Source: Novosphingobium sp. EMRT-2 (GTDB lineage Bacteria > Pseudomonadota > Alphaproteobacteria > Sphingomonadales > Sphingomonadaceae). From it: a DNA stretch of 64,000 bases. The notes beneath the pieces are model-generated. The model saw only the letters and a program-made list of their open reading frames with translations. It was not told where the DNA came from and ran no database searches. The stretch is taken from contig NZ_CP039695.1 in assembly GCF_005145025.1 (NCBI RefSeq), positions 2,961,501 to 3,025,500 of the forward strand. The letters are read 5' to 3'. This document shows, piece after piece, positions 7,759 to 60,570 of the stretch. Each line of letters opens with the position of its first letter. Within the stretch, counting starts at the first letter, position 1. Made by a program: the position numbers and the translations under genes.

Positions 7759-8199
7759 GTGGCCGAGATCGTCTTGCGCGAATCGGCGTTCGATCCCGCG
7801 GCGGAAATGGACGCCTTCATCGGCCGTCACGCACAGGCCGGTGGCGTCGTCAGTTTTCTCGGACAAGTGCGCGGGGACGGCGGCGTGGAAGCGCTCGAAC
7901 TGAAGCACTATCCGCCGATGACGCAGCCGGGGATGGCCGATCTCGCTGTCACGATCGAACGGCGCTGGCCGCTGGAGGGGCTGCTGTTGCTGCACCGGGT
8001 GGGCCTGATGGTGCCGGGTGATCCGATCGTGCTGGTCGCCGCGGCCGCGCGCCATCGGCGCGATGCCTTCGCCGCCGCCGATTTTGCGATGGACCACCTG
8101 AAAGGCGAAAGCTGGTTCTGGAAGCGCGAAAAGACCGCCGCCGGCTGGCGCTGGATCGAACCGCGCGCGCAGGACCACGCCGACCTCGCGCGCTGGTAG
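7759..8199 (+). CDS. moaE: Molybdopterin synthase catalytic subunit MoaE
   Basis: A 146-residue MoaE subunit, which transfers sulfur from MoaD to precursor Z. Family sequences seen are VVSFLGQVRG near the N-terminus, LLLHRVGLMVPGD in the centre and FAMDHLKGESWFWKRE with the conserved lysines of the active site. The GTG start at 7759 is one base after the moaD stop. The gene ends exactly where the convergent lipoprotein gene ends. Confidence 0.96.
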   Translation: MAEIVLRESAFDPAAEMDAFIGRHAQAGGVVSFLGQVRGDGGVEALELKHYPPMTQPGMADLAVTIERRWPLEGLLLLHRVGLMVPGDPIVLVAAAARHRRDAFAAADFAMDHLKGESWFWKREKTAAGWRWIEPRAQDHADLARW

Positions 8200-8763
8200 C
8201 TATCCGCGCACGCGGCCGCGCAGCGAATCGAGCGAGCGGTTCTCGTCCGCCAGCCAGCCGTCCACTTCATCGCGCACCTTGCGCACCGCCTTGAGATCGG
8301 CATCGGGGCCGTCGACGGCGGCCTTGGTCGCTTCCACCAACATAGTGTCGAGATCGGCCAGCGGCAGCAGCAGGCTGGACCGGGCCGAATCGAGCGCGGC
8401 CAGCGCGCCCTGCGCGACCGACCAGTTCTCCGCGCCTGGTGCCGCGCCGGCCGCCTGCGCCGCCGCGCGTTCGCCGGCAGGGCGCAGCGCCTCGAAATCG
8501 CGATGCGCCTTCGCCGCGGAATCGCGCAGCGTGGCCAGGCGGGCGAGCAGCGCGGGGCTGGCGGCCGATGGCGCGGGAACAGGGGCGGGCTGGGGAGCGG
8601 TGACACCCGTGCCATAGGCGCTTTCGGCCGGGCGGCGGGCCAGTGAGGGATAGTGTCCGCGCGCCGCGCATCCTTGCACCGCCAGCGCGGCGATCGCGAG
8701 GACGCCGAGGCGGAGGGCGGCGGGCGAGAGCGGGGGCTTGCGGAATGGATCGGGGCGAAGCAT
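8200..8763 (-). CDS. Putative lipoprotein of unknown function
   Basis: A 187-residue protein from the ATG at 8763. Residues 1-33 are a lipoprotein signal: basic start, hydrophobic LGVLAIAALAV and lipobox AVQGC. The rest is an Ala/Pro-rich linker followed by helical sequence (about residues 60-187) with many Asp, Glu and Arg residues, probably coiled coil. No family is recognised. Its 3' end abuts the moaE stop in convergent orientation. A longer open frame reaches back to 8898 but lacks a signal-type N-terminus. Confidence 0.65.
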   Translation of the reverse strand: MLRPDPFRKPPLSPAALRLGVLAIAALAVQGCAARGHYPSLARRPAESAYGTGVTAPQPAPVPAPSAASPALLARLATLRDSAAKAHRDFEALRPAGERAAAQAAGAAPGAENWSVAQGALAALDSARSSLLLPLADLDTMLVEATKAAVDGPDADLKAVRKVRDEVDGWLADENRSLDSLRGRVRG

Positions 8764-8882
8764 GCCGACGCCATAGCATGGGCACGGCCGCTGGCCACCC
8801 CGCAGCGCTACCCTGCGCTGGCCTTCGTCGTGCGCTGTGGCCCGGCGCGCGCAATTTCCGCCCGCCGCACCGGCCTTTCGCG

Positions 8883-8911
8883 TTGACAGGCGGCCCACCT
8901 TGGACTATCCG
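8883..8911 (+). promoter_or_regulatory. Putative sigma-70 promoter for rplU-rpmA
   Basis: TTGACA at 8883-8888 and TATCCG at 8906-8911 are separated by exactly 17 bases. The next gene on this strand is rplU, 126 bases downstream, leaving a leader of about 115 bases. The -35 box is a perfect consensus match; the -10 box matches at the key T-A positions only. Confidence 0.5.
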
Positions 8912-9036
8912 CGCCTCTCTTTCCGGGACCCTGCCCACGGTGGGGTGCCGGTGTGTTGCCCGCTATCCGCCGATTCGTGCGGGGTCTGGCGAGCAGACGT
9001 GAAGACGGGCAGACTTGAAAGACGGATAGTAGAACC

Positions 9037-9333
9037 ATGTTCGCAATAGTGCGCACGGGCGGCAAGCAGTATCGGGTGGCCGCCGGAGACAAGATCGCGG
9101 TCGAGAAGCTGGCGGGTGAAGCCGGCGAAACGATCACCCTCGGTGACGTCCTCCTTGCGGGCAAGGACGGCGAACTGGCTGACGCGGCCAAGATCACGGT
9201 TTCGGCCGAGATCATCGCGCAGGCCAAGTCGGAAAAGGTCGTGGTGTTCAAGAAGCGCCGCCGCCACAACTATCGCCGCAAGAACGGTCACCGCCAGCAG
9301 CTTACCCTGCTGCGCATCGTGTCCGTGGCCTGA
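9037..9333 (+). CDS. rplU: 50S ribosomal protein L21
   Basis: A 98-residue L21 protein of the large ribosomal subunit. It begins [14 protein letters not shown] and carries the basic family signature [16 protein letters not shown] near the end. Length is normal. It is followed by rpmA after 23 bases, the nearly universal rplU-rpmA order. A consensus-like promoter sits 126 bases upstream. Confidence 0.98.
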
Positions 9334-9356
9334 TTCGAGATCCGGAGTAAGACGAG

Positions 9357-9626
9357 ATGGCACACAAGAAAGCAGGCGGCTCTTCGCGTAACGGTCGCGA
9401 TTCGGCTGGTCGCCGCCTTGGCGTGAAGAAGTTCGGCGGTCAGGAAGTGATCGGCGGCAACATTATCATCCGCCAGCGCGGTACCAAGGTGTACCCGGGA
9501 GCCAACGTCGGCATCGGCAAGGATCACACCCTGTTCGCGCTGACCGAAGGCCGCGTACGCTTCCACGCCGGCAAGCTCGGCCGCAAGTACGTGTCGGTCG
9601 ATGCCATGGCGGAAGCCGCCGAGTAA
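9357..9626 (+). CDS. rpmA: 50S ribosomal protein L27
   Basis: An 89-residue L27 protein, starting [16 protein letters not shown], the N-terminal tail that reaches the peptidyl transferase centre. There is no cleavable N-terminal extension. It includes [16 protein letters not shown], the family signature. It lies in the rplU operon and is followed by two hairpins, the second with a T run. Confidence 0.98.
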
Positions 9627-56196: not shown

Positions 56197-56212
56197 TGTG
56201 ATGAAACTCACG
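56197..56212. promoter_or_regulatory. Candidate CRP/FNR-type binding site
   Basis: TGTGA-TGAAAC-TCACG fits the CRP pattern TGTGA-N6-TCACA except for the last base. It lies 77 bases before the start of a Crp/Fnr-family gene and about 310 bases from the divergent acyl-CoA dehydrogenase pair. The rest of the 402-base gap 55887-56288 shows no gene. Confidence 0.55.
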
Positions 56213-56288: not shown

Positions 56289-56963
56289 ATGTCGGGCAGG
56301 TCGAAGGGAATGCACAGGGACGAACGCATAACGGCGATCGCCGCGATGTTCGATTGCGCGCCCGCGCTGGCCGCACACGTCGAGCCATCGATGCAGGCGG
56401 TATCGTTCGCGCATAAGGCGGTGCTCGCCCACCAGGGCGATCCCTCCGAACATTGCTGGCTGGTGATCGGCGGCACCGTTCATATCCAGGTGAACGGCAT
56501 CGACGGGCAGCGCGTGCAACTGGCCTATCACGGACCGGGTGAATTCTTCGGGGCCTACCCCGAACCGGCGACCCACCGCGCGGACATGGTGGCGCACGGC
56601 GCGGTCGATCTGCTGCGCATTCGGTGCACCGAACTGGCGGCGCTGGCCACGCGCGAACCGGCGCTGGCGGTCGGCCTTGCCAGACGGCTCGCGCGCCAGC
56701 TCGATCTGTCGTTGGACCGGATGGCGGCGCAGACCACGCTTTCGGCGCCCGGGCGCATTCATGCGGAATTGCTGCGGCTGGCGGATGCGGAATACCGCAT
56801 TGTGCCGGCACCGCAGATTACCGCGCTGGCGCTCAACGCCAACACCGCGCGCGAAACCGCCTCGCGCGCGGTCAGCGCGCTGGAGCGGCGCGGGATCGTG
56901 GAACGGTCGGAACGGGGCCTGACCATCCTGGCTCCACGCATGTTGCGCGATATGATCTACTGA
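56289..56963 (+). CDS. Crp/Fnr family transcriptional regulator
   Basis: A 224-residue regulator: a cyclic-nucleotide-binding-like beta domain (residues about 28-120, EHCWLVIGGTVHIQVNG and YHGPGEFFGAYPEP) and a C-terminal helix-turn-helix (ITALALNANTARETASRAVS, then ALERRGIVE). It lacks the N-terminal cysteines of Fnr. The effector is unknown. The ATG at 56289 is used; one at 56310 is possible. A CRP-type site lies upstream, hinting at autoregulation. It converges on the TPR gene of the TIR operon. Confidence 0.88.
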   Translation: MSGRSKGMHRDERITAIAAMFDCAPALAAHVEPSMQAVSFAHKAVLAHQGDPSEHCWLVIGGTVHIQVNGIDGQRVQLAYHGPGEFFGAYPEPATHRADMVAHGAVDLLRIRCTELAALATREPALAVGLARRLARQLDLSLDRMAAQTTLSAPGRIHAELLRLADAEYRIVPAPQITALALNANTARETASRAVSALERRGIVERSERGLTILAPRMLRDMIY

Positions 56964-56981: not shown

Positions 56982-58448
56982 TCAGCGCACCGCCAGCAGC
57001 CCCAGCGCCAGATCTCCCTGCGCCGACGCGATCTGGCCGAAGTTTTCGCAGTGCAGGTCCGGCGCGTGCAGGGTCAGCGCCAGCGCCAGCGAGCGGGATA
57101 CCGGCACTTGTCCGGGCAGCCCCGCACCGGCCACGCGCACGGCCGTTTCCAGGCGCTGCGTGGTGTTCCCGGCCGGATCGTAGGCGCCATAGGTCACGCC
57201 CAGCGTGCGGCCGTGCAGCGTCACGTCCGCCAGCGCTATGCGCGCCGCCGCGACCGGATCGTCGAATCGCGCGATGGTGAACGCGCCGTGCCGGACCAGC
57301 GCCGCGCCGGCGTGGGCGAAATGGTCCGCCGGCTCGCCATCGGGCACGGCGACAAGCGCCTCGCGCGCGAAGGTGGGCGGGGGGCTGGTCGTGGAGCCGC
57401 TGCGTTCGAGCGGGACTCGTTCGATGGGCAGGCCACGGTCGCGCCAGGCGGCGTCCAGCAGCGAACCTTGCGCCCGCGTGCCGTCGCCCAGCCGCAGCGC
57501 CACGGCATGGCTTTCGAGTTGGCGGGCATGGCGGATCGCGCAGCCCATCGCCATCTCGTCGCCGACGTAGATTCCCGATTGCGAAACCGCGTCCAGCGCC
57601 TCGATGGTTTCCACCGAAGCGGCGGCTTCGAGAATGGCGTCGAAACGCGCTTCCCAATGCGTGCCGAAGCGGGAGACCGAATCGTGGCGGAAGCCCTCGA
57701 TCGTGGCGGGCAGCATGACGTGCAGTTCCACGTCGCGTTCCAGCAGCGCTTCGGCGACCATGATGTCCGCCCCCGCGGCCAGCGCGCCGAAGGCGAAGCC
57801 GGGCCGGATGCGATCCACCGCCTCGGCGATCCGTTCGGGCGATTGCGCCTGATCGGGCGCGACGTGGATGATGCCGCTGAAATGCAGGCTTGCCGGTGGA
57901 CGATAGGCATCCAGCCATTCCGCCGGCCGCGCGAGCGTCGCCATGATCAGCCGGAAATGCCGCAGGGTGGAGGCGTGATCCTCCCACGCGCGCGGGGCCT
58001 GCCGGACGGCCTGCGCCAGCACCGCCTGGCCCTTGTCGATCTCGCCCAGCAGCAGGCACGCTTCCGCGCGAGTGGCGTGCAGCCAATAGGCGGTTTCGGG
58101 TTCGTGATCGCCCGCATCGAGCATGGTCAGGACGCGGGTGGCCAGGATCGCCGCGTCCTTTTGGTTGCCTTCCAGCAGTGCGATCGTTGCGGCGTTGATC
58201 AGCGGATAGGTGGCCGGCATCATCGCCGCAGCCGAGAGATAGGCCTGCCGCGCCGCGCCCAGCAGGCGGGTGCGTTCCGCCGTCGATGGCGCGGAAAGGC
58301 CCCGGTCCTTCAACAGGCGGCCCTTCAGCGTCAGCGTATCGGGATGCCGGTCGCCTTCCAGCGCGGCGTCGGTGAACATCTGCCACGCCCGCATCGTATC
58401 GCCGCTGCGGGCAAGCCGTCTGATGATCGGGATTTTCGAATTGTGCAC
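56982..58448 (-). CDS. TPR protein with SLOG/DprA-like central domain
   Basis: A 488-residue protein, third gene of the TIR operon. Residues 1-175 are helical TPR-like repeats (AYLSAAAMMPATYPLINAAT, LLGEIDKGQAVLAQA). Residues 186-250 read as a Rossmann-like unit: LHFSGIIHVAP, then FAFGALAAGADIMVAEALLE and VELHVMLPAT. The GALAAGAD loop and ending at VMLP resemble SLOG/DprA domains that bind nucleotides; related sequences occur in TPR proteins of signalling systems. The C-terminal 200 residues are unassigned. Nucleotide sensing is inference. No catalytic residue can be named. Confidence 0.7.
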   Translation of the reverse strand: MHNSKIPIIRRLARSGDTMRAWQMFTDAALEGDRHPDTLTLKGRLLKDRGLSAPSTAERTRLLGAARQAYLSAAAMMPATYPLINAATIALLEGNQKDAAILATRVLTMLDAGDHEPETAYWLHATRAEACLLLGEIDKGQAVLAQAVRQAPRAWEDHASTLRHFRLIMATLARPAEWLDAYRPPASLHFSGIIHVAPDQAQSPERIAEAVDRIRPGFAFGALAAGADIMVAEALLERDVELHVMLPATIEGFRHDSVSRFGTHWEARFDAILEAAASVETIEALDAVSQSGIYVGDEMAMGCAIRHARQLESHAVALRLGDGTRAQGSLLDAAWRDRGLPIERVPLERSGSTTSPPPTFAREALVAVPDGEPADHFAHAGAALVRHGAFTIARFDDPVAAARIALADVTLHGRTLGVTYGAYDPAGNTTQRLETAVRVAGAGLPGQVPVSRSLALALTLHAPDLHCENFGQIASAQGDLALGLLAVR

Positions 58449-58475
58449 GGCTTGCCCAGCTTTCCTTGCGGGGTT

Positions 58476-58955
58476 TCAGTTGAGCTTCGGCGGCGGGTTC
58501 TTGATGTCCGGATCGATGCTCATCCCGATCCAGCGCGGACCCCTGCGGCTCTTCTGCAGCAGGTCGATGTTCACGTTGAAGGCGTGCGTGGTGCCGAACT
58601 TGCCGCCCTTGTTGAAGCGCGCCACGAAACGCACGATCTTGTAGCGATCCAGCTTCTCGTCATAGCCGTCGTATTCGAGATTGCTGTAGAACGCGCCGAG
58701 ATTGGCATCCTTCATGGTGATCGCGTCGAACGCCTTGGAGAAGAACAGCTGGTCGCCCTTCAGCACGATCTCGACCATCGTGTCTTCGGTGATCGCGATA
58801 TAGTCCTGCGCTTCCTGGCCATCCTGATCCATCTTGAGCACGATCGCGCCGTTGCGGGCATAGAGGCTGATCGTGAAGGTCAGCGCCTTGCCGGCCGCCG
58901 TGCGCAGCGCGGGATCGTGGGGAAGCGCGTATTGCGCGGGGGAACATTGCGACAT
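58476..58955 (-). CDS. Small conserved-looking protein of unknown family in TIR operon
   Basis: A 159-residue protein without signal or membrane segment. It looks rich in beta strands: GKALTFTISLYARNGAIVLK, DYIAITEDTMVEIVLKGDQL and RYKIVRFVARFNKGGKFG. I recognise no domain. Its ATG is one base after the stop of the TIR gene, and the TPR gene follows 27 bases after its stop, so it is the middle cistron of a tight operon. A link between sensor and effector, or a ligand-binding role, is only possible. Confidence 0.75.
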   Translation of the reverse strand: MSQCSPAQYALPHDPALRTAAGKALTFTISLYARNGAIVLKMDQDGQEAQDYIAITEDTMVEIVLKGDQLFFSKAFDAITMKDANLGAFYSNLEYDGYDEKLDRYKIVRFVARFNKGGKFGTTHAFNVNIDLLQKSRRGPRWIGMSIDPDIKNPPPKLN

Positions 58956-58956
58956 G

Positions 58957-60570
58957 TTACTTCTCCGTTTTCAGATCGGGAAAACTTTGCAGGATGCGCA
59001 GGCGCCAGGTCAGCCAGTCGCGGTTGTCGGGATCGGTGGCGATCAACCGGTTCGCGGCCTGCATGGCCAGCCTTGCGGAGCCGCGCGCGCCGGTCTTGTC
59101 GCCAAGGTCCGACAGCAGCGTTGCCATCGAATAGCGCGAAAGCATCCAGTCCTGCCGGTAGGCGGCGTTGGCCGGATCGATGCGCAGCAGATCGTCCATG
59201 ATCGTGGCCTGTTGCTGGCGTTCCGCCAGCGCGTCGCGCTTGTGTCCGGCCGCGTTGAGCGCATCGGCCAACCAGGCGTGGCGGTTGGCGAGATCGGCCT
59301 TGATGCCCGCATCGCCGGGGCGGGATCGCGCGGCCTGTTCCATCGCGGCAAGCGCGCTGCGGCAGGCGTCTAACCCGGCCGGCGGGCGCGCCTGCTCCGC
59401 CAGTTCCAGCGAACAGATATTGCCCTGCGCGTAACCCAGCTCGCGCAGCGCGCCGGCATCGCCGGGTTGCAGTTTCACCAGCTTTTCGGCCAACGCGCGA
59501 TAGGCGGTGAAGTGCGGGCGCGCGGCGGCATAGCGGTTGCGCTGGTAGTCGGTATAGCCGATCCAGAACTCGCTTTGCGCATGCGCGAACACGCGCTGCG
59601 GATCGTTCGGCATTTCCGCCAGCAAAGCGCCGGTGGCGCGGTGCGCTTCGCTGAACTCCATCAGCGCGGCGTCCAACCGTCCGCGCTTCTGGTCGTCCTC
59701 GCCCATCGCTTGCAGCACGCGGGCGCGCCGGTCGAGCGAGCCGGCGGGCAGGCCGTCGAGATCGCCCTGTGCGGCATAGTAGTCCAGCGCGCGCGTGTTG
59801 ACCGATTCCAGCACGTCGAGCCGCCCGACTCCTTCCAGCCTTGTCCGCAGGTCTGTCAGCATGAACTCGATCAGCCCTTCGGCCTGTTGCCTTTGCCGGT
59901 CTGCCTCGTTGCGCGCGTTGATCGCCACGAACAGGAGCGTGGACAGCACTACAACGGTCAGGGCGGAAACAAGCGTGATGGCCGTCACGCGGCGCAGCTG
60001 CCGCTGCGCGTCGCGCTGCACCAGCTCGTCGAGCCCGATGCCGGTCAATCCGGCAACAAGGCGCAGGCGGGCAAGCTTGCCGTCGCCGATCCGGCGGAAG
60101 TCGGCGGCGGCCGGCTCGCGCACCGCTTCTCCGGCTTCCCCGTCGGTCGCGGCATCCGTCAGACTGGGCGGAAAGGCGTCTTCCGGTTCGCCGTGGAGCA
60201 GCCCCGCCAGGATCGGGCGATCCGGGTGCTTTTCGCGGAAATAGCGGATTTCCTGATCGACCCAGCGCGAACGCCGCGCCTCGGGCGAACAGAGCACGAT
60301 CAGGCAGGCCGATGCGGCCAGCGCGTTGCGGACTTCCTCGTTCAGATCGCTGGAGGCGGGCAGCTCGTTGCGATCGCGGAAGATCGGCGTCAGCCGGCGT
60401 GGCACCCGGCCGCGTGGCGTTTCCAGCCCCACCAGCCGGGGGGGGATGCGGTACGTCTCCAGCCAGCGGTGAAGCCGCGCGGCCGCCGGCGTATCCGCAT
60501 GGCTATAGCTCAGGAAGGCGCGATAGCGCGGCTGCTCGTTTGCGGAACTGGCCTCCGGCGGGGCAGTCAT
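58957..60570 (-). CDS. TIR domain protein with membrane helix and TPR region
   Basis: A 537-residue protein heading the operon. Residues 16-150 are a TIR domain: RAFLSYSHADTPAAARLHRW, LTPIFRDRNELPASSDLNEE, and ACLIVLCSPEARRSRWVDQE. The glutamate at about 107, after Trp103, matches the catalytic Glu of NAD-cleaving TIR domains. One membrane helix lies at about 196-217, so TIR is cytoplasmic. After a coiled linker (GLIEFMLTDLRTRLEGVGRL), residues 250-530 are TPR-like helices, which would be extracytoplasmic if the helix is a simple anchor. This is unusual for a TPR sensor. ATG at 60570 follows GGAG. Confidence 0.85.
   Translation of the reverse strand: MTAPPEASSANEQPRYRAFLSYSHADTPAAARLHRWLETYRIPPRLVGLETPRGRVPRRLTPIFRDRNELPASSDLNEEVRNALAASACLIVLCSPEARRSRWVDQEIRYFREKHPDRPILAGLLHGEPEDAFPPSLTDAATDGEAGEAVREPAAADFRRIGDGKLARLRLVAGLTGIGLDELVQRDAQRQLRRVTAITLVSALTVVVLSTLLFVAINARNEADRQRQQAEGLIEFMLTDLRTRLEGVGRLDVLESVNTRALDYYAAQGDLDGLPAGSLDRRARVLQAMGEDDQKRGRLDAALMEFSEAHRATGALLAEMPNDPQRVFAHAQSEFWIGYTDYQRNRYAAARPHFTAYRALAEKLVKLQPGDAGALRELGYAQGNICSLELAEQARPPAGLDACRSALAAMEQAARSRPGDAGIKADLANRHAWLADALNAAGHKRDALAERQQQATIMDDLLRIDPANAAYRQDWMLSRYSMATLLSDLGDKTGARGSARLAMQAANRLIATDPDNRDWLTWRLRILQSFPDLKTEK

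Follow-up and report, generated by a model that had tools for sequence, protein, structure and literature searches.

Organization of the locus

We analysed a 64,000-nucleotide stretch of contig NZ_CP039695.1 from Novosphingobium sp. EMRT-2 (positions 2,961,501 to 3,025,500 of the forward strand), referred to here as the window. It carries three genes on the minus strand, encoding a membrane TIR-TPR protein (gene 1, 58957..60570), a small beta-sandwich protein with an Asp-Pro (DP) tail (gene 2, 58476..58955) and a TPR-S protein (gene 3, 56982..58448). A Crp/Fnr-type regulator gene on the plus strand (56289..56963) converges with gene 3. Translation of the open reading frames (ORFs) gave gaps of 1 and 27 bases between genes 1 to 3, in agreement with a preliminary description made from the sequence alone, which had presented them as a three-gene operon. 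The three genes are real and their order recurs, but the fourth component on the opposite strand had been left out. The only TIR_2 match of the 4.77 Mb genome falls inside the window. An NCBIfam scan of the window genes gave nothing but matches far under the cut-off, and a PDB sequence search using profiles of genes 1 to 3 gave nothing significant.

We fetched 40 loci, each with a TPR-S match, 15 of them chosen for pNTSase1 (the Pfam family of gene 2) and 25 for TPR-S alone. A TIR-TPR gene, a middle ORF and TPR-S lay in order on one strand in 32 of the 40 (15/15 and 17/25); the trio was absent from L040, L041, L052, L056 and L061-L064. Since adjacency and order recur in many genomes, the grouping is more than chance. 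For comparison we used 37 non-redundant loci, made up of fetched trio loci, five named loci chosen for their middle gene, and the window; L002, L003 and L028 were left out of these counts as near-identical to the window.

The TIR-TPR protein

Gene 1 encodes a 537-amino-acid protein with a TIR domain, a membrane helix and TPR repeats, and is the likely effector of the set. Pfam matches to TIR_2 (47 bits) and ThsB_TIR (43.9 bits) were both above cut-off, and PADLOC returned a SAVED-TIR model (29.6 bits) and weak ThsB models. The TIR domain spans residues 19-126 (60193..60516, minus strand) and has the WxxxE feature of TIR NADases, with W103 and the catalytic Glu E107. Both residues had been proposed from the sequence, and comparison with relatives bears this out. 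Among the 37 trio rows, one of which is gapped there and was left out, E107 and W103 are each kept in 36/36; in TIR-TPR proteins from loci without TPR-S they are kept in 20/20 and 18/20, respectively. A Kyte-Doolittle scan likewise predicts the membrane helix suggested earlier, at residues 192-210 (59941..59997, minus strand). With the same cut, 21 of the 37 TIR-TPR relatives have just one hydrophobic segment.

The middle protein

The preliminary description regarded the 159-residue product of gene 2 as an orphan. It is not, for it matches PF20301 (pNTSase1, "predicted novel nucleotide synthetase") with 215.1 bits against a cut-off of 25. Its counterparts in Novosphingobium sp. MD-1 and SCN 66-18 share 99% identity with it.

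The structure model of gene 2 is an all-beta sandwich (predicted local distance difference test, pLDDT, 90.9) with the fold of the DP-EP family (PF08985). All 12 Foldseek matches at E≤0.001 were to SO1698, a DP-EP relative (E 3.8e-6), and the model also matches MakD and PixA. At the sequence level the PF08985 profile gave no match to gene 2 at E≤1, and hhalign of gene 2 against PF08985 alignments gave a weak match (E 0.0046, probability 7.5).

Gene 2 carries the tail motif D148-P149-D-I-K-N153 (58497..58514, minus strand), of which D148, P149, I151 and N153 are present in 55/55 aligned middle proteins. By range ends and spacing, D148-P149 corresponds to the Asp-Pro site of SO1698, and the spacing from Asp-Pro to Asn is the same as in SO1698 DPQIIN. 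Mutants of SO1698 at D37, S114, D116 and P117 keep the longer deposited chain, and three of these four residues have window counterparts by spacing, namely S146 (S/T), D148 and P149, each in 55/55. By analogy with SO1698, the gene 2 protein may cleave itself at D148-P149. D51 was withdrawn as the counterpart of D37, the aligned residue in hhalign being Y52. SO1698 contains an isopeptide link, and gene 2 differs in having, by reading, no Lys at the K98 distance; such a link was set aside for it. SO1698 was reportedly the subject of a 2012 study by Osipiuk.

The Pfam name would suit a different scheme, in which gene 2 encodes a nucleotide synthetase making a messenger, TPR-S binds that messenger and TIR is the effector. 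The polar residues R104, N115, H124, N127 and D131 are invariant in 55/55, as they would be in an enzyme. The all-beta model, on the other hand, has SO1698, MakD and PixA as its matches, with no nucleotidyltransferase among the structure matches listed. Moreover, the same slot in other genomes keeps little recognisable except the tail, so that a shared active site cannot be made out there. We consider this scheme improbable, and it was demoted to a rival because the gene 2 model matches SO1698.

Among the 37 trio loci, blastp links 135/666 pairs of middle proteins versus 666/666 for both neighbours. The DP tail occurs in 30/37 (the seven exceptions were judged by reading), so that, as far as alignments can tell, the tail is the shared part and the bodies diverge between clades. 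In L043-L047 and L049 the slot is filled by another type of middle protein, with HPP or HPS at its end; the protein of L043 or L044 is 34-36% identical to those of L045 and L047, and their TIR proteins are 76-80% identical. In L053 a slot of 1483 bp (8009-9490) with two ORFs of 245 and 239 amino acids separates TIR-TPR and TPR-S.

Relatives of the TIR-TPR and DP-tail pair

We looked for PF08985 in 249 genomes of the phylum and in 119 genomes of the order of one match, with 3 matches in the first set and 11 in the second (those three included). In 11/11 genomes DP-EP is immediately preceded by a gene that matches the transmembrane (TM)-TPR part of the window's TIR profile, with E-values from 9.6e-9 to 3.7e-47. 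Four partners of DP-EP-type genes were scanned, three from these 11 genomes and one (L074) from the class of the window. All read winged helix-turn-helix (wHTH) - nSTAND1 - TPR and have a hydrophobic segment in between, and in the three from PF08985 genomes nSTAND1, a STAND NTPase, stands in the place of TIR. Gene 2 thus resembles DP-EP/SO1698 in fold, in the Asp-Pro site with its identical spacing to Asn, and in having a TM-TPR partner gene; it differs in that the partner carries TIR rather than nSTAND1 and that D37 has no sure counterpart.

The pairing also exists apart from TPR-S: in 14 of 20 TIR-TPR loci without TPR-S (three of them, L113, L116 and L117, added by eye) the gene directly downstream is short and carries the DP tail. 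No clear DP-tail gene was seen at L104, L106, L112, L119, L121 and L122. In the tails listed, I or V follows D-P at +3 in 42/56 rows and N at +5 in 48/56; D and P are there by construction, because rows were chosen for DP, and the rows of L036, L053 and L091 took a later DP than the motif. As background, 203 of 2375 arbitrary ORFs of 100-310 amino acids have DP 2-24 residues before the end. At L081:5812-6733 a tandem DP-EP pair stands behind a single wHTH-nSTAND1-TPR gene, and at L077 the second of two DP-EP genes has a signal peptide apparent by eye.

The TPR-S protein and its decayed cyclase

Gene 3, with a GTG start, encodes 488 amino acids. It matches TPR-S (PF20308, 41.8 bits, cut-off 27.6) and, also above cut-off, MAP3K_TRAF_bd (PF13281, 33.7 bits); PADLOC found nothing for genes 2 and 3. 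The structure model (pLDDT 93.9) comprises a TPR region resembling the central region of ASK1 (residues 1-183, 57900..58448), a SLOG/YpsA-type Rossmann domain (residues 184-348, 57405..57899) and a decayed class III adenylyl cyclase domain (residues 359-488, 56985..57374), all on the minus strand. The TPR repeats and the SLOG-like core with GALAAGAD and VMLP, both noticed at the outset, are thus present in motif and in model, and the core has the YpsA/LOG Rossmann fold with the Gly-rich loop of the SLOG superfamily. The motif GxLA(A/C)G(A/S/T)D is kept in 44/44 aligned rows, window included. TPR proteins (OGT, SPY) lead the Foldseek list, in which cyclases are also present; the SLOG match rests on a separate model comparison, because YpsA is not among the 50 Foldseek matches listed.

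The C-terminal domain has the class III cyclase fold in the model. Its two metal-binding Asp residues are absent in the window, and both are kept in 6/37 trio loci. At L041:3579-6531 and L061:4529-7540, TPR-S carries a class III cyclase domain that matches PF00211 above cut-off, and adjoins a TIR gene (TIR-FHA in L041) and, by reading, a PP2C-like gene. This is another TIR/TPR-S pairing, without a DP-tail gene.

The Crp-type regulator

The convergent regulator has a cyclic nucleotide monophosphate (cNMP)-type domain (cNMP_binding, 44.5 bits) and a Crp helix-turn-helix (HTH_Crp_2, 34.9 bits). In a phmmer search with the window protein as query, a Crp relative abuts TPR-S in 33 of the 37 loci with a gap of -23 to 160 bp, convergent in 32 and co-directional in L033. 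No relative was found by phmmer at L032, L034 and L039, and that of L057 lies on the other side of the set. Crp also adjoins TPR-S lacking a TIR neighbour at L052, L056, L101 and L102; the last two (G178:C2:364837-367100 and G966:C22) are TPR-S and Crp pairs in genomes of the genus without a TIR-TPR match (E≤1e-60). Within the genus, a strong Crp match (E≤1e-39) is found in nine genomes, all with TIR-TPR and eight in the same array, and weaker relatives do occur at other loci.

The recognition-helix residues RET..R are kept in nearly all Crp rows. The cyclic AMP (cAMP) pocket of Crp is marked by GE...RS; the window protein lacks this signature and reads FGAYP...HRAD. Where the cyclase is decayed, the adjoining Crp is without it as well.

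A perfect Crp-type palindrome, TGTGATGAAACTCACG (56197..56212, plus strand), of the form YGTGA-N6-TCACR, lies 92 bp before the Crp gene. Perfect sites of this form occur before the Crp gene in 12/34 loci (window included) and before TIR in 5/37. Shuffles gave a mean of 0.03 and a maximum of 1 in 200, and a control region inside the operon gave 0/37. An unprompted dyad search returned CGTGA-N6-TCACG, before TIR in 5/37 and before Crp in 7/34. The window has no perfect palindrome before the TIR gene, and its second perfect copy falls inside gene 1, at 59974, so that single sites are not proof. The site before Crp may also serve a neighbouring gene.

Read as autoregulation, which it suggests, the site before the regulator gene would suit a toxin-antitoxin arrangement, in which TIR-TPR would act as toxin and the DP-tail protein as an inhibitor seated on its TPR arm, with Crp as a repressor-type controller; once the inhibitor was cleaved or lost, the toxin would be free. 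The tight pairing of TIR-TPR and DP-tail genes across lineages fits as well. However, the other lineage has as partner a wHTH-STAND protein, which is not an obvious toxin, and the middle gene comes after the effector gene, not before it. We regard this arrangement as unlikely.

Distribution and proposed mechanism

In the order, pNTSase1 was found in 16/296 genomes (15 above cut-off), with TPR-S adjoining in all 16 by coordinate comparison, and TIR-TPR relatives in 84/296 (profile, E≤1e-40), both counts including the own genome. TIR-TPR lies within 4 kb of TPR-S in 41 genomes (from 64 TPR-S places). In the genus, TIR-TPR occurs in 25/79 genomes (E≤1e-60). The adjacency that the preliminary description wished to see across sphingomonads and beyond recurs within the order. 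Outside the order the class sample has TIR-TPR relatives in 5/289 genomes (E≤1e-30), and none of these five has TPR-S in the fetched stretch around TIR-TPR. Protein families within 3 kb flanks, ORFs of both strands taken in, are common to just 20/666 pairs among the 37 loci. Flanks being so rarely in common, the set recurs in many settings, and its patchy presence and unshared flanks would fit an accessory, mobile set. Plasmid records gave 5 matches, one covering at least 80%.

Judged by its genes, the locus most likely serves stress or immune signalling. The reading we favour, tentatively and with a little less than even confidence, is a four-gene locus of two modules, a TIR effector triggered by the DP-tail protein, and TPR-S with Crp. 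It starts from the anatomy, adjacency, tail motif, predicted folds and decay pattern described above. In the first module the TM-TPR arm would hold the TIR effector at the membrane, paired with the beta-sandwich protein and its DPx(I/V)xN tail. The small protein would be the trigger, its variable body sensing invader or damage. The TPR arm would read the docked tail, perhaps after self-cleavage at D148-P149, and so let TIR domains cluster and consume nicotinamide adenine dinucleotide (NAD). In the second module the signal would run on to TPR-S, whose SLOG domain may bind an NAD-derived TIR product. Ancestrally, the TPR-S cyclase would have made a cyclic nucleotide that Crp read; as the window cyclase and Crp pocket are both decayed, the message to Crp would now be another ligand or direct contact. 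TIR, STAND and SLOG domains are typical of conflict systems, and from domain types and patchy distribution we infer a possible defence function.

A bolder version would make the TM-TPR arm and DP-tail sandwich one ancient trigger unit with exchangeable outputs (TIR or wHTH-STAND). On sensing, the sandwich would cut itself at Asp-Pro, and its DPxIxN tail, freed or re-shaped, would be the ligand of the TPR arm, so that the supposed nucleotide synthetase would be a self-cleaving switch. TPR-S with Crp would be a second unit, in which cyclase and receptor decayed together. This version we think rather unlikely.

Several observations weigh against the two-module reading. Before the helix of the TIR-TPR proteins, basic residues are more numerous in 26/37, equal in 6 and fewer in 5, a charge bias suggesting that the TPR arm may face outwards; by the Kyte-Doolittle cut used for gene 1, a signal-peptide-like hydrophobic start is absent from all 37 middle proteins. 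With the arm outside and the DP-tail protein cytosolic, contact would be prevented, and this conflict of topology is the point at which the docking model is weakest. Seven middle genes (L043-L047, L049 and L050) are without a DP tail, six of their products ending in (I/A)HPP or IHPS. SO1698 D37 pairs with Y52, beside D51 (D in 42/55), in the weak hhalign match, and in L084, a near relative of SO1698, nothing aligns with D37. Within the clade of the window the middle gene changes no faster than its neighbours, and of the 160-amino-acid control segments the one from the TPR-S C-terminus is no easier to recognise than the middle gene (107/666 pairs; the other five, 376 to 666 of 666), which weakens any general claim that the middle gene is hypervariable. 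Outside the trio, those TPR-S proteins that keep both cyclase Asp (L041, L061-L064) lack a Crp match in the stretches fetched, which speaks against a fixed cyclase-Crp pair, and the strong Crp match is found in just 9 of the 25 genus genomes with TIR-TPR. In phage records there was no match to the TIR protein at E≤1e-10. Finally, the window flanks read, without family search, as metabolic: acyl-CoA dehydrogenases and an arginine-catabolism-like cluster.

These last two points would suit ordinary metabolic or envelope-stress signalling with no defence role, TIR being a scaffold or a housekeeping NADase, and so would the wHTH-STAND regulator that is the partner in the other lineage. The patchiness and unshared flanks point the other way, as does the company of TIR, STAND and SLOG, and we hold this explanation to be doubtful.

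Comparison with known systems

Burroughs and Aravind are said to have described TPR-S and pNTSase1 in 2020 as conflict components. The window agrees with these in that genes 2 and 3 match PF20301 and PF20308 above cut-off and have a TIR partner; it differs in a middle protein that models as SO1698-like, not as a synthetase, and in the additional Crp and decayed cyclase.

The ThsB_TIR match and the partner with a SLOG-type domain recall Thoeris (ThsB TIR, ThsA SLOG), but the window TIR sits in a membrane TPR protein and there are extra DP-tail and Crp genes. Membership was rejected, as gene 3 has no SIR2 match and its C-terminal domain is a cyclase fold. Pycsar combines a cyclase with a cNMP-gated TIR or membrane effector. 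The window likewise has a cyclase fold beside a TIR effector, but here the cNMP-type domain belongs to a Crp regulator that lacks the pocket signature; Pycsar was rejected as well, both metal Asp being lost and gene 1 having no cNMP domain match. The ASK1 TPR region resembles that of TPR-S in the model, although, unlike the ASK signalosome, the window set is bacterial and has no kinase match in Pfam.

The component families are already known, and the operon itself may already be in print. In the open-licence literature searched we did not find gene 2 re-assigned in this way, TIR and STAND linked through TM-TPR plus DP tail, the Crp partner, or the decay of cyclase and Crp pocket, and in open papers no description of a role for SO1698-type proteins. 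If the reading is true, the label "nucleotide synthetase" is wrong for this family, which would instead be related to a solved protein that seems to cut itself, and SO1698-type proteins gain a partner. TIR and STAND signalling would be linked via one shared trigger, and the cyclase and Crp pocket, having decayed together, would record a second-messenger pathway lost or rewired.

At L040:2722-13370, by reading, trypsin-like, patatin-like, TIR-like and STAND-like genes surround a TPR-S-type protein.

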